DNA of 33,160 nt from a virus. The stretch spans positions 1 to 33,160 of the IMG/VR virus record IMGVR_UViG_3300018424_004126. One strand, written 5' to 3'. The notes under the pieces were generated by a model. The model did no database searches and had not been told where the DNA came from. It was given only the letters and a program-made list of their open reading frames with translations. Below are positions 1 through 31,642 of the stretch, in pieces (position 1 is the stretch's first letter; each line of letters begins with the position of its first letter). A program made the translations under genes and the position numbers.

Positions 1-969
1 AACACCTTTTTGCTTTTCTTCATTTACATTTTCGTATTGAGATTGCATTTCTTCTGGTAGTGATGTAAAGCGAACTTTGCCGCATTCAGAACATACTGAT
101 TCGTTTGTTCTTTGTAGTGCTTTTTGAACACCTGGATGTTTTGATAAGCCCTTAGCAATTTTTTCGATAGTAGCAACAGCACCTGTCATATTGCCACCTT
201 TGTATCTTGGATCGTTTAAAACACCGTAAGCCATTTTAATTTCTTTGTCAGAAAATCCCATGTTATCATGCGATTCTTCTGTTCTGTCTCCATCAACATC
301 TGGAACATTGATTTCGTTTTCAAGATAGTGTTTAGCTTTGCTAATCATTGAAAGACTGTTAACAACCTTAGCCTGCCACCAGTGGGGGAAATCACTGTCC
401 GCAGGTAATTTTTCTAACATTGTAAACATCTCTTTAGCATAGGTAGCCATTTGATAAAGTTCTTTACGAATCATATTACGTTCATCATCTACATGACCGA
501 TAGGGGTTGTCTCGGTTGCAATTGACTCTTCTTTTTCATCGTCATCATCTTTTGATGGCTCAGGATCTTTTACTTTTGATAGGGTATCGTCTTTTTGTTG
601 CGTAGCCCATTTCATTAGTTTTAGAATTTTTTCTTTCGGTAGTTTAGTTTTCTTTTCAAGCTCTTCTATCGAAGATGCACCTCCTGCTTCACCGTACATA
701 GTAAGTTCACTACCTACTCTTGACATTACATTTGATAATGCATCGTCTTTGGTTGTAATTGCTTTGTCCATCAAGATTCTACCGATTCTTGATAGTTCAC
801 TACCGGCTGGATGTGTATAGATGGATTCGTCCATTGTTTTCCCCTTATGTTTTTCGTATCCGTATTTTTGTTCTTTCTTCTTATCTCGATGAGCACCCAT
901 AGCACCACTCTGACGAATGTCTTGCATAGTTTTCCAACTAGGGTCTCTACTCTTGATCGTCTTCGGCAT
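1..969 (-). CDS. Probable virion-associated protein, 3' end cut by window edge
   Basis: The frame is open from 981 down to base 1 with no stop, so the C-terminus is missing. Three in-frame starts are possible: 981, 969 (chosen; begins MPKTIKSRDPSW) and 834 (MDESIYTHPAGSE, which has the best ribosome site, AAGGGG, six bases upstream). From 969 there are 323 visible residues. The N-terminus is very basic (RDKKKEQK) and an acidic linker of Asp/Glu (KDDDDEKEE) lies in the middle. The next part is hydrophobic and helical (MATYAKEMFTMLEKL, HWWQAKVVNSL), and a CSECGK knuckle near the visible end could bind zinc. I recognise the general look of proteins from marine T4-like phages but cannot assign a function. 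It is the last visible gene of a minus-strand run of suspected virion genes and overlaps the nucleotidyltransferase gene by 23 bases. Confidence 0.75.
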   Translation of the reverse strand, partial: MPKTIKSRDPSWKTMQDIRQSGAMGAHRDKKKEQKYGYEKHKGKTMDESIYTHPAGSELSRIGRILMDKAITTKDDALSNVMSRVGSELTMYGEAGGASSIEELEKKTKLPKEKILKLMKWATQQKDDTLSKVKDPEPSKDDDDEKEESIATETTPIGHVDDERNMIRKELYQMATYAKEMFTMLEKLPADSDFPHWWQAKVVNSLSMISKAKHYLENEINVPDVDGDRTEESHDNMGFSDKEIKMAYGVLNDPRYKGGNMTGAVATIEKIAKGLSKHPGVQKALQRTNESVCSECGKVRFTSLPEEMQSQYENVNEEKQKGV

Positions 970-1579
970 CTGTTTTTTCATCTTGAAGTCCCATTCCTTT
1001 TCTAACTGCTAGAAAAAGTTCGTCTGCGTGTTCACCTGCACCTGTATGTTTTACAAAACTTTTTAAGTCGTTGTTTGCTGCATCTTCACGTGCTTGTGTT
1101 CCGCTAATTCCTTCTACACCTTCTGCGCCATCTTCTCTTTCACCACTTGAAACAAATTCCATTGTTTCAAATTTAAAAGGATGTGCAACAGGTCCTCTTT
1201 TACCTTCAGTCTTACCATTGTAATCTTTAATAAGATTTCTCATAGAATCTAATCTATCACTACCTGCAACAAATGTGATGTGATTGTATCCTTGATCATT
1301 TAAGTACTCACATACTTTGTCAATGGTGTTTAGATTTTTGTTATCTTCTATTTGATCAGCGTAGTTAGGATGTATCTTTCTAATAAAGTCAATTTTTGTG
1401 TCATAGTCTAACGGATTCTTTTTCCCGTCTTGGCTAACACTTGTAAAAATTTTCATTTCTCCACCTTGGTCAGCCATTGCATCAAAAACTTTTTTATGGC
1501 CAAGTGTAGGGGGATTGAATCTTCCGAAACAAAATGTAACGTGTCTATCTTGTGCTTCGAAGAGTTCTCTAATCTTCAT
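947..1579 (-). CDS. Nucleotidyltransferase with capsid-targeting-like N-terminus
   Basis: A 210-residue protein of the HxGH (cytidylyl/adenylyltransferase) superfamily, which transfers a nucleotide onto a phosphorylated or small substrate. Residues 19-28 are GRFNPPTLGH, the nucleotide-binding signature, and a distal ISGTQAR motif matches the ISxTxxR signature. The substrate cannot be told; NMN, phosphopantetheine and glycerol-phosphate are all used by relatives. ATG at 1579 was chosen because GAGGCG lies 4-5 bases upstream and it overlaps the previous stop by 11 bases; an in-frame ATG at 1618 would add 13 residues inside the upstream gene. The N-terminus MKIRELFE|A resembles a T4 capsid-targeting peptide ending in a prohead-protease site (LxE), which is unusual for an enzyme. 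Flanking genes look virion-related, so it may be packaged in the head; that part is inference. Confidence 0.85.
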   Translation of the reverse strand: MKIRELFEAQDRHVTFCFGRFNPPTLGHKKVFDAMADQGGEMKIFTSVSQDGKKNPLDYDTKIDFIRKIHPNYADQIEDNKNLNTIDKVCEYLNDQGYNHITFVAGSDRLDSMRNLIKDYNGKTEGKRGPVAHPFKFETMEFVSSGEREDGAEGVEGISGTQAREDAANNDLKSFVKHTGAGEHADELFLAVRKGMGLQDEKTDAEDDQE

Positions 1580-1904: not shown

Positions 1905-2543
1905 TTACCACTTCCTGCATGACCAGTAACGAGCTTTTGTTCTCGGACCTGGGTTTGAACAATTATGTCTAGCTCTAAATGACTTTCTACGTGCCGGATT
2001 AGATTTTTTAATTCTCATATTAGGATCACCAAAGTTTACTTTCTTAATATTTTTTGTTTTCGGATCTCTAACGTATACTTTAAACTTCTTGACATCACCT
2101 TGCATAGGTTTGCCTAGTGGAACTTTACGACCTCTATATTCTGCTTCTTCTACAGGTACATCTTCGTGCCATGGTAGGAAACCGTAATAGTTATAAAACT
2201 CTTCACCTTCAAATGTTTGTTCATCGTTGATTTCTTCAAACTTTGACATCATTCTTCTTACAGCTTCTTCGTAGTCTTCTTGTGCTGCATCCATTGCATA
2301 TTCGTGATCTAATGCTCCTGGCTGGACAACTGCTGTTGCTAGTTCATCATCTAGTTTATTGTTACCATCGCCCTCTGCTTCACCTCTTAGTGATTTAGGG
2401 TCAACTTTTCCGTTAACTGCTGTATAATAAAGTGTGCCTTCGCCGGTTTCGCCATCATCTCCGGTGAATTCAAAGCCGTCAACTTCACCTTGATATGTGT
2501 CGACATCTTCGTATAATTTTAATTTGTCCAATAGATCACGCAT
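1905..2543 (-). CDS. Probable virion protein with basic Cys-containing C-terminus
   Basis: A 212-residue protein. It starts MRDLLDKLKLYE|DV, a helical N-terminus ending in an LxE site like T4 prohead-protease targets. The middle is strongly acidic (GDDGETGEG, VEEAEY). The last 60 residues switch to a basic module: KVYVRDPKTK, FGDPNMRIKK, PARRKSFRARHNC and KARYWSCRKW. From memory this module recurs at the C-terminus of proteins in marine T4-like phages; its function is unknown to me, and the charge suggests nucleic-acid or capsid contact. ATG at 2543 has AAAGGA eight bases upstream and a late-promoter core at 2573-2578. The acid-to-base split may mean that the targeting peptide is removed on maturation, an inference. 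Confidence 0.75.
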   Translation of the reverse strand: MRDLLDKLKLYEDVDTYQGEVDGFEFTGDDGETGEGTLYYTAVNGKVDPKSLRGEAEGDGNNKLDDELATAVVQPGALDHEYAMDAAQEDYEEAVRRMMSKFEEINDEQTFEGEEFYNYYGFLPWHEDVPVEEAEYRGRKVPLGKPMQGDVKKFKVYVRDPKTKNIKKVNFGDPNMRIKKSNPARRKSFRARHNCSNPGPRTKARYWSCRKW

Positions 2544-30124: not shown

Positions 30125-30412
30125 ATGTTTATAGGAACCCTTAGAGTAACAACCAAGCACACACGTAAGAGTAAACTGGGTAAAAAACACGCATATAAAC
30201 GTGTTAAGACTGTAGTTCAATTACGCTGTGATCAATGTGACACTGTATTTACACGAGATCTAAAAAACATCAATAAAAACCGTTTGAACAACAATTACTT
30301 TCATGTGTGTTCAGATTGTGAACCTAAAAAGTTCGCTCAACGAAAGGGTGTTGAAAATAAGAAATTGTGGGATTTATCAGCAGATAGTGAAATTACTATT
30401 TCTAAGAACTAA
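30125..30412 (+). CDS. Small zinc-knuckle-like protein
   Basis: A 95-residue basic protein with CDQC and CSDC pairs spaced by about 30 residues, typical of a zinc-binding knuckle, plus a basic N-terminus (KHTRKSKLGKKHAYKRVK). ATG at 30125 is chosen over 30110, because the upstream ATG lies within the promoter. Neither has a ribosome site, so a leaderless mRNA is likely. It may bind nucleic acid or be a nuclease adaptor; I do not recognise a family. It converges with the Fe-S carrier gene, overlapping it by four bases. Confidence 0.7.
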   Translation: MFIGTLRVTTKHTRKSKLGKKHAYKRVKTVVQLRCDQCDTVFTRDLKNINKNRLNNNYFHVCSDCEPKKFAQRKGVENKKLWDLSADSEITISKN

Positions 30413-30735
30413 AACCCTACGCTTTCTCCACACCCGCACGATGAAGTTGAATTAGGATTCTTGATCTGAAAATAGGAACCAAATGTTTCTTCTACATAGT
30501 CTATGGTAGTTCCTATCAAGTACATTAAACTTAATGAATCAATAGCAAACTCCCCATTAGAAAGTTTTACAATTTCATCGTCAAGTTCTTTGGAGTCAGT
30601 CATACCCCAGTCATATGAAAATCCGGCACAGCCGCCACCTTTAATTTTTAATCTGACAACAGGCTGGCCGGTTCTTTCAATAAGGCGTTCCATATGCGCC
30701 TTTGCAGAATCTGTTAAGATAACTGCGTCGGACAT
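30409..30735 (-). CDS. A-type Fe-S carrier (IscA/ErpA/SufA family)
   Basis: A 108-residue A-type carrier that hands Fe-S clusters to apo-proteins. The three invariant Cys are present: Cys36 in GGGCAGFSYDW, and Cys100 and Cys102 in SSCGCG. It lies downstream of an AT-hook mini-gene and a small membrane gene, not in an isc or suf operon. Together with the phage's own 7Fe ferredoxin it hints that the phage looks after Fe-S supply. ATG at 30735 directly follows the stop of the 57-residue gene (TAAATG), suggesting coupling. Confidence 0.93.
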   Translation of the reverse strand: MSDAVILTDSAKAHMERLIERTGQPVVRLKIKGGGCAGFSYDWGMTDSKELDDEIVKLSNGEFAIDSLSLMYLIGTTIDYVEETFGSYFQIKNPNSTSSCGCGESVGF

Positions 30736-30921: not shown

Positions 30922-31068
30922 TTATTTAGAAGTTTTCTTAGGTCTACCTCTTTTAGCAGCAGGCTTTTTAGCCGGTGCTTTCTTCGCGGTAGACTTTTTA
31001 GCAGCAGCAGGTTTTGATTCTGCTACAGGTTTTGCTGGTGCGAAGAGATTCTTTAACCAATTTAACAT
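30922..31068 (-). CDS. 48-residue AT-hook/H1-like basic protein
   Basis: An ATG-to-TAA frame. The protein begins MLNWLKNLFAPAKPV and continues as a Lys/Ala/Pro-rich tail with KKSTAKKAPAKKPAAK and a final RGRPKK, the AT-hook core that binds the minor groove of AT-rich DNA. It looks like a histone H1 or HU-tail type protein and could compact or coat phage DNA. AGGAG lies seven bases before ATG at 31068. It is directly downstream of the superoxide dismutase gene. Confidence 0.75.
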   Translation of the reverse strand: MLNWLKNLFAPAKPVAESKPAAAKKSTAKKAPAKKPAAKRGRPKKTSK

Positions 31069-31069
31069 T

Positions 31070-31627
31070 TTATTCTCCTGTTAATCTATTATTGACTATC
31101 GACCAATTTATGATACGCCATATACTATCTAAGTATTTGTCTTTGGTAGTATCTAATAGGTATGAATGTTCCCACATATCTACTAGAAAAATTATTTCAG
31201 TACCTTTCTTGAAATCTTGATTGGCTATAGTATCAATTTTGCCATTGACATCCATATAACACCAACCACTACCTTTAATACCTTTGGCTTCGTCTTTGAA
31301 TTTTTCTTTGAATTTTTCGAACGTTTCGAATTTCTTTTCGATTAGTTCTAGTGATGCGTCTTTAGGTTTGTTTGAAGAGCTTGGAGGTTGCAGCATTTCC
31401 CACCACAAGTTATGTAGGTGTGCGCCACCGAAATTAAATGTATCATCACCTTCTTTTTTGTTATAGCGATCTACATATCCTTTTGATAGAACACTATAAT
31501 GAAGATCAACAGTTTCTTTGCTCATTACAGGTTCCAAAGCATCTCGAGCATAAGGTAACTTGTTAAGAACAAGAACTGGTCTGCTTTTTTCAGACTCTAC
31601 AATTAAATCCTTCAATTCTTTTAACAT
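31070..31627 (-). CDS. sod: Fe/Mn superoxide dismutase homologue
   Basis: A 185-residue homologue of Fe/Mn superoxide dismutases, which turn superoxide into oxygen and peroxide. All four metal ligands are found: His43 (VDLHYSV), His72 (HLHNLWW), and Asp150 and His154 (VDMWEHSY). LPYARDALEP, FNFGG and KGSGWCYM match the family. Gln137 in ANQD matches the MnSOD-type outer-sphere Gln, so manganese or cambialistic use is plausible. The sequence has short deletions and one fewer His in the active-site approach, so activity is unproven. ATG at 31627 has no ribosome site, and a late-promoter core ends five bases upstream. SOD genes are rare in phages. Confidence 0.85.
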   Translation of the reverse strand: MLKELKDLIVESEKSRPVLVLNKLPYARDALEPVMSKETVDLHYSVLSKGYVDRYNKKEGDDTFNFGGAHLHNLWWEMLQPPSSSNKPKDASLELIEKKFETFEKFKEKFKDEAKGIKGSGWCYMDVNGKIDTIANQDFKKGTEIIFLVDMWEHSYLLDTTKDKYLDSIWRIINWSIVNNRLTGE

Positions 31628-31632
31628 CAATA

Positions 31633-31638
31633 TATTTA
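31633..31638 (-). promoter_or_regulatory. T4-type late promoter core before sod
   Basis: The minus strand reads CTAAATATATTGATG: the TAAATA core, then exactly five bases, then ATG at 31627. Late transcription should begin at the start codon. Confidence 0.55.
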
Positions 31639-31642
31639 GTAA

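Follow-up and report, generated by a model that had tools for sequence, protein, structure and literature searches.

A compact Fe/Mn superoxide dismutase of T4-like phages that is probably carried in the particle and injected with the DNA

The window, by which we mean the whole 33,160-nucleotide stretch of IMG/VR record IMGVR_UViG_3300018424_004126 that was analysed, encodes on its minus strand a compact, 185-residue homologue of the Fe/Mn superoxide dismutases (SODs) with an N-terminal leader (31070..31627; ATG at 31627..31625, stop codon at 31072..31070). Both Pfam domains of the family were identified, Sod_Fe_C with an E-value of 7.6e-21 (74.5 bits; curated cut-off 20.9) and Sod_Fe_N with an E-value of 8.4e-12 (45.8 bits; curated cut-off 27). 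The protein matched 158 PDB sequences (best E 5e-28), and the best 60 of the 158 are all SODs. A preliminary description of the locus had proposed a phage-encoded Fe/Mn SOD homologue with complete metal ligands, and the Pfam domains, the PDB matches, the predicted fold and the viral relatives all agree with this assignment. The strand was left unstated there, and three features described below went unnoticed: (i) the leader; (ii) the loss of His30 and Tyr166; and (iii) the His found in most relatives at the water-coordinating position. A PHROGs profile search with the SOD protein gave no convincing match (best E 0.029); the family is apparently absent from PHROGs or unrecognised there. A near-identity search with the window returned no match among isolated phages, and the nearest isolates according to its clamp loader are the PA5oct-like phages (54%). 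Neither Rfam nor tRNA scans found anything in the window.

The SOD gene is followed by genes encoding a 48-residue basic protein, a small membrane-type protein and an A-type Fe-S carrier. The basic protein (30922..31068, minus strand), which starts 1 nt past the SOD stop codon, is rich in Lys, Ala and Pro, resembles AT-hook and H1-like proteins and has an AT-hook-like end, KRGRPKK; it is possibly another head-internal DNA-binding protein. Lys/Ala-rich counterparts lie directly downstream of the SOD in contigs L003, L004, L005, L007, L020, L021 and L072, and an alternative gene at this place in close relatives encodes a small protein of 69–75 residues, named SAP-like by eye. The Fe-S carrier (30409..30735, minus strand; IscA/ErpA-like; Pfam Fe-S_biosyn, 2e-16) has counterparts in many distant relatives that lie at the SOD stop codon or overlap it. 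In L264, L273, L254 and L271, genes that by eye are IscU-like or encode the ribonucleotide reductase beta subunit come after the SOD. Such neighbours appear to fit the protection of Fe-S and radical enzymes. They would also suit an ordinary auxiliary metabolic SOD acting unpackaged in the cytosol of the infected cell, with an incidental N-terminal helix, and an intact fold and metal site would be expected of such an enzyme too; we regard this explanation as unlikely in view of the leader, promoter and mass-spectrometry data presented below.

The four metal ligands named in the preliminary description are present and invariant in the alignments, being conserved in 39/39 compact phage representatives: His43 (His26; 31499..31501), His72 (His74; 31412..31414), Asp150 (Asp159; 31178..31180) and His154 (His163; 31166..31168), all on the minus strand. 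The MnSOD-like Gln that it also named is Gln137 (31217..31219, minus strand), which lies within an NQD motif and aligns with the water-coordinating Gln143 of human MnSOD. The window SOD belongs to a minority in this respect, the water-coordinating residue being Gln in 4 and His in 35 of the 39 representatives. Tyr34, Trp161 and Glu162 are likewise retained in all 39. Two positions ahead of the Asp ligand, 37/39 have a Leu, a feature shared with the cambialistic SodM of S. aureus (PMC10172142), and we draw from this, cautiously, that the compact phage SODs may be flexible in their use of Fe and Mn.

Structural prediction with AlphaFold2 yielded a confident model of the window SOD (mean pLDDT 92.1, pTM 0.85), which aligned with solved Fe/Mn SODs over about 167 residues with Z-scores of 23–24 and an rmsd of about 1.9; the structure prediction proposed in the preliminary description thus shows an SOD fold. 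Comparison with the bacterial SODs revealed that (i) the hairpin between Asn56 and Asn65 is shortened to 8 residues (residues 57–64; 31436..31459, minus strand), compared with 26–38 in the bacterial proteins, which is the deletion around the second helix already noticed from the sequence; (ii) position 30 is Leu in 39/39 compact phage SODs and His in 31/31 bacterial SODs; (iii) position 166 is never Tyr in the same 39 and Tyr in 31/31 bacterial SODs; and (iv) the HxxxHH motif, in a comparison with SodFM 1–5, is reduced to HxxxL. His30 and Tyr166 meet across the SOD dimer interface, and their joint loss is therefore coherent. Solved structures of human H30 and Y166 SOD mutants are among the rows of the structure search.

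The doubt about activity that the deletion had originally raised is not borne out, given that the short hairpin is fixed throughout a large clade in which no ligand has been lost and that the model is confident and SOD-like. Activity could still be low, since the pair His30/Tyr166, by which catalysis is tuned in cellular SODs, has disappeared. In close relatives, the dN/dS ratio was 0.085 for the SOD core and 0.153 for the leader, which indicates purifying selection. Judging from this core ratio, and because 109 viral stretches encode relatives, the shortened gene is not decaying. The same observations bear on the idea that an SOD fold without catalytic activity now serves the head as a structural or scaffolding protein. 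The loss of His30 and Tyr166, the shortened hairpin and the head-targeting leader are all compatible with such a role. However, a pure scaffold would need no metal site, and the ligands, Tyr34, Trp161, Glu162 and the water-site Gln/His are kept in 39/39 under strong purifying selection on the core, which makes a dead fold highly improbable.

The 109 stretches came from a first scan of viral contigs, in which the leader-bearing homologues showed 70–82% and about 50% identity; a second scan, started from a distant clade member, found at least 572 relatives. The earlier statement that SODs are rare in phages therefore holds for annotated phage genomes, where the convincing cases are the PA5oct-like Pseudomonas phages and Vibrio phage 2.275.O, and fails for viral contigs, where one member alone has these 572 or more relatives. 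A tree with bacterial and phage SODs, also proposed in the preliminary description, united the 39 compact phage SODs with 100/100 support and set them apart from the bacterial sequences. This maximum-likelihood tree comprised 72 rows; its cellular SODs were 31 bacterial ones chosen as best matches. PA5oct and Vibrio phage 2.275.O have long branches, and their position inside the compact clade is uncertain.

Several other hits were set aside. Seven "phage" records (OR844989, OR850395, OR846937, OR846594, OR851122, MW462191 and CAKLQF020000002) carry bacterial-looking SODs with, where inspected, bacterial-looking neighbours, and are probably host DNA. Contig IMGVR_UViG_3300032288_004815 (L046, L047; 118 kb) carries the SOD twice, the copies being identical and oppositely oriented, and has at least one further doubled gene; the doubling is probably a palindromic assembly artefact. 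A separate group of normal-length phage SODs (L051–L064, L067, L068, L073–L075) keeps His30 and Tyr166, and several of its members are fused behind a HEWxHE zincin-like domain; in the tree, the normal-length group clusters with SODs of Bacteroidota/Chlorobiota.

The segment ahead of the SOD fold, MLKELKDLIVESEKSRP, is a low-confidence portion of the model, and in most alignments to solved SODs the fold begins at about residues 14–18. Codons 1–11 (31595..31627, minus strand) encode MLKELKDLIVE, a leader that resembles the capsid-targeting sequences of T4 and lies outside the SOD fold. In T4, the gp21 protease recognises L/I-x-E in head proteins and cuts behind it, and a stretch of IPIII as short as its first 10 residues is enough to bring foreign proteins into the head and then into the host (PMC9026906). 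By the same rule, a prohead-protease cut is predicted after Glu11 and before Ser12 (IVE/S, the slash marking the cut here and below).

Conservation of the site among relatives argues for this prediction. When the compact SODs were reduced to less than 80% identity, 48 non-redundant sequences remained, and [LIVF]xE closes the leader in 48/48 of them at a leader length of 9–14 residues. The stricter [LIV]xE[AGS] occurs in 38/48 leaders, whereas 500 shuffling trials gave 3.0 on average and never more than 9. Of the 48 leaders, 45 have L or I at P3, and 39 are followed by A, S or G at P1'. The leader bodies diverge, as in MLKELKDIIVE/A, MKVNDFLTE/A, MRATEFLTE/S, MSEIRNLINLVE/A and MTYNFIQKFIVE/G, and some, such as MKVNDFLTE/A, MKLNDFLIE/A and MRATEFLTE/S, resemble the T4 leaders. 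The motif is short, and in whole genomes near-N-terminal motifs of the L/I-x-E type are only about 1.5–3 times commoner than elsewhere. The long SODs L050–L079 were not counted in support of the leader because their site, IE/S or IE/T, has a variable P3 and they represent a separate acquisition.

An incidental N-terminal extension on a cytosolic SOD would not be expected to retain [LIVF]xE in 48/48 lineages amid such turnover. The SOD of Vibrio phage 2.275.O has no N-terminal leader, as a cytosolic enzyme would not. This protein (L096:5968-6537) carries a C-terminal tail, MLDE/SVNIRHLINFISK, in which the part after the LDE site resembles the leader bodies of relatives; the tail is possibly the targeting sequence shifted to the C-terminus. 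It is also conceivable that the leader serves another purpose, namely oligomerisation, membrane association or export from the host, and the model does show a short helix at residues 2–14. However, model confidence over the leader is low, conservation falls on the positions of the protease site, and the leader has neither a hydrophobic core nor a signal-peptidase-like site, unlike a few bacterial relatives; we find such a purpose hardly credible. Most bacterial relatives have 2–10 residues ahead of the fold, and the longer N-termini among them are mostly export-signal-like.

A T4-type late-promoter-like motif, CTAAATA, lies 5 nt upstream of the SOD start codon (31633..31639, minus strand). T4 late promoters have the form TATAAATA, and related forms serve marine T4-like phages. 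In 50/78 distinct upstream regions, TAAATA lies no more than 22 nt from the SOD start, as against a mean of 2.0 and a maximum of 7 after shuffling; the background in four phage sequences is only 10–14% of ORFs with TAAATA within 25 nt. The strict TATAAAT showed no clear enrichment upstream of the SOD (4/82, shuffled mean 1.9). A late-promoter-type motif upstream of the gene argues against a purely cytosolic enzyme. Late synthesis is easier to reconcile with the filling of new heads than with early protection in the same infection.

Head machinery of the T4 type accompanies the SOD in larger contigs. The gp21 protease (PF03420) and the gp23 capsid protein (PF07068) are encoded alongside a compact SOD in G015, G027 (355 kb), G028 (340 kb) and G032 (189 kb), and a gp21-type protease and gp23-type capsid protein are also found in the long-SOD phages. 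We found neither gene in the 33-kb window fragment or in the larger contigs of its close clade. The head clusters of SOD-bearing relatives show, at the expected cut sites, AL[LT]E/G in the capsid protein and [IL]xE/AWE in the scaffold, and their prohead proteases have L/I-x-E near the N-terminus.

Leaders of the same kind are found on other genes. A tight T4-like leader pattern, defined after examples had been seen, matched 17/790 ORF starts near SOD loci, an SOD among them, compared with 1/2270 internal Met codons. Leaders with the strict motif were not enriched within 1 kb of the SOD (4/175, compared with 2–4 in controls). In L217 (2247-6513), a run of genes around the SOD bears the leaders MRARDFLIE, MRANEFIIE, MKSNEFLSE, that of the SOD itself (MRATEFLTE) and then MRARDFILE; several of these leader-bearing genes encode basic-tailed proteins. 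The window itself encodes a basic-tailed protein (1905..2543, minus strand; PHROG match phrog_7595) with the leader MRDLLDKLKLYE/D, and in some phages the same C-terminal tail occurs near the SOD on proteins with leaders such as MKSTEFLSE/A. A second candidate for head targeting is the cytidylyltransferase-like enzyme of the window (947..1579, minus strand; CTP_transf_like; PHROG cytidyltransferase), whose leader reads MKIRELFE/A. The pattern R[ED]LFE is preserved in 10 relatives. Leader variants in the relatives L327–L336 include MKIRDLFE/Q and MLLRELFE/G, and the PA5oct counterpart has no leader.

A possible sign of packaging comes from the homologue in PA5oct. PA5oct gp223, annotated as a hypothetical protein, has the leader MNDSIKKYISIAE/A, which ends in ISIAE/A, and carries an ESI-MS/MS note in both deposited records. 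Exactly 93 PA5oct genes, that of the SOD homologue included, bear this note; the PA5oct genome paper of Lood et al. (2020) reportedly counts 93 virion-associated proteins. The tagged set also holds ribonucleotide reductase and thymidylate synthase, and abundant enzymes of this kind may be carry-over. An N-terminal [LIV]xE[AGS] is present in 13/93 tagged proteins and in 6/162 untagged ones (a subset of the other genes), with a p value of 0.003 that depends on the span of residues chosen; with strict [LI], the counts are 9 and 5 and the difference is weaker (p 0.03). The presence of the homologue among mass-spectrometry-tagged proteins is a further point against an unpackaged SOD. The SODs of PA5oct and of MIJ3, Callisto and the Paride-like Pseudomonas phages share the compact clade, on a long branch, and the leader end SIAE/A; they differ from the window SOD, with which PA5oct gp223 and its kin are 32% identical, by a His at the water-coordinating site. 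In the papers describing MIJ3, Callisto and Paride, we found no mention of superoxide.

On this evidence, we consider it likely that the protein is a late-made compact SOD that is loaded into the head through its leader, cleaved and delivered at infection. Large T4-like phages would synthesise it late, and the leader would bring it into the prohead core, where a gp21-type prohead protease would cut after Glu11 and release a mature SOD that stays next to the DNA inside the head. The SOD would then be ejected with the genome into the host in the manner of the T4 internal proteins, dismutate superoxide ahead of all phage gene expression, and guard the incoming DNA as well as the Fe-S and radical enzymes on which take-over depends. 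For the phage of the window, we infer encapsidation, cleavage, ejection, activity and benefit. The preliminary description named either the infected cell or new virions as what is protected; the leader, the late motif and the mass-spectrometry tag on PA5oct gp223 favour a protein that travels in the virion. Because of the analogy with the T4 internal proteins, a benefit in the host at entry is favoured over a benefit in the particle.

One of the closest known systems is that of IPI, IPII, IPIII and Alt of T4 (PMC9026906), with which the SOD shares a short N-terminal leader and L/I-x-E before a small residue, a gp21 protease and a gp23 capsid protein in relatives, a late-promoter-type motif and, in some relatives, basic-tailed leader-bearing neighbours. 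Unlike these basic internal proteins and the ADP-ribosyltransferase, the cargo here is a metalloenzyme of cellular descent, and its packaging and cleavage are predicted. The closest precedent is chlorovirus PBCV-1, whose Cu/Zn SOD (A245R) is the product of a late gene and is packaged in the virion (PMC7019647); infection is there accompanied by less superoxide than with a virus that has no SOD gene. That enzyme is unrelated and belongs to a eukaryotic virus, and the passages on it describe no prohead-protease leader. With the cellular SodFM1–5 (PMC10172142), the phage protein shares the fold, the four ligands, Tyr34, Trp161, Glu162 and the water-coordinating Gln/His; it differs in its separate clade, the hairpin of 8 rather than 26–38 residues, Leu30, a non-Tyr166 and the 11-residue leader. 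The main text of PMC10172142 mentions no virus or phage. In the open-access literature, we found no paper linking a capsid-targeting sequence with superoxide dismutase, and a report that we have not seen may exist.

Phage SODs would usually be filed as auxiliary metabolic genes, and a head-targeting leader would turn this one into a virion payload. It appears somewhat more probable than the opposite that a sizeable and widespread group of T4-like phages inject a ready-made SOD and that this SOD is a new compact branch in which the His30/Tyr166 gate has been replaced and the hairpin tip lost, perhaps to fit head loading and ejection. If this is true, oxidative conditions at entry or in the stored particle select strongly enough for an enzyme to be packed, and the phage SOD would be to prokaryotic hosts what the packaged chlorovirus enzyme is to eukaryotic ones. 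A simple sequence test based on the leader rule could reveal further enzymes that large phages package, the cytidylyltransferase of the window being one candidate, and the clade with Leu30 and a non-Tyr166 would be a natural experiment on the pair that has been mutagenised in human MnSOD.
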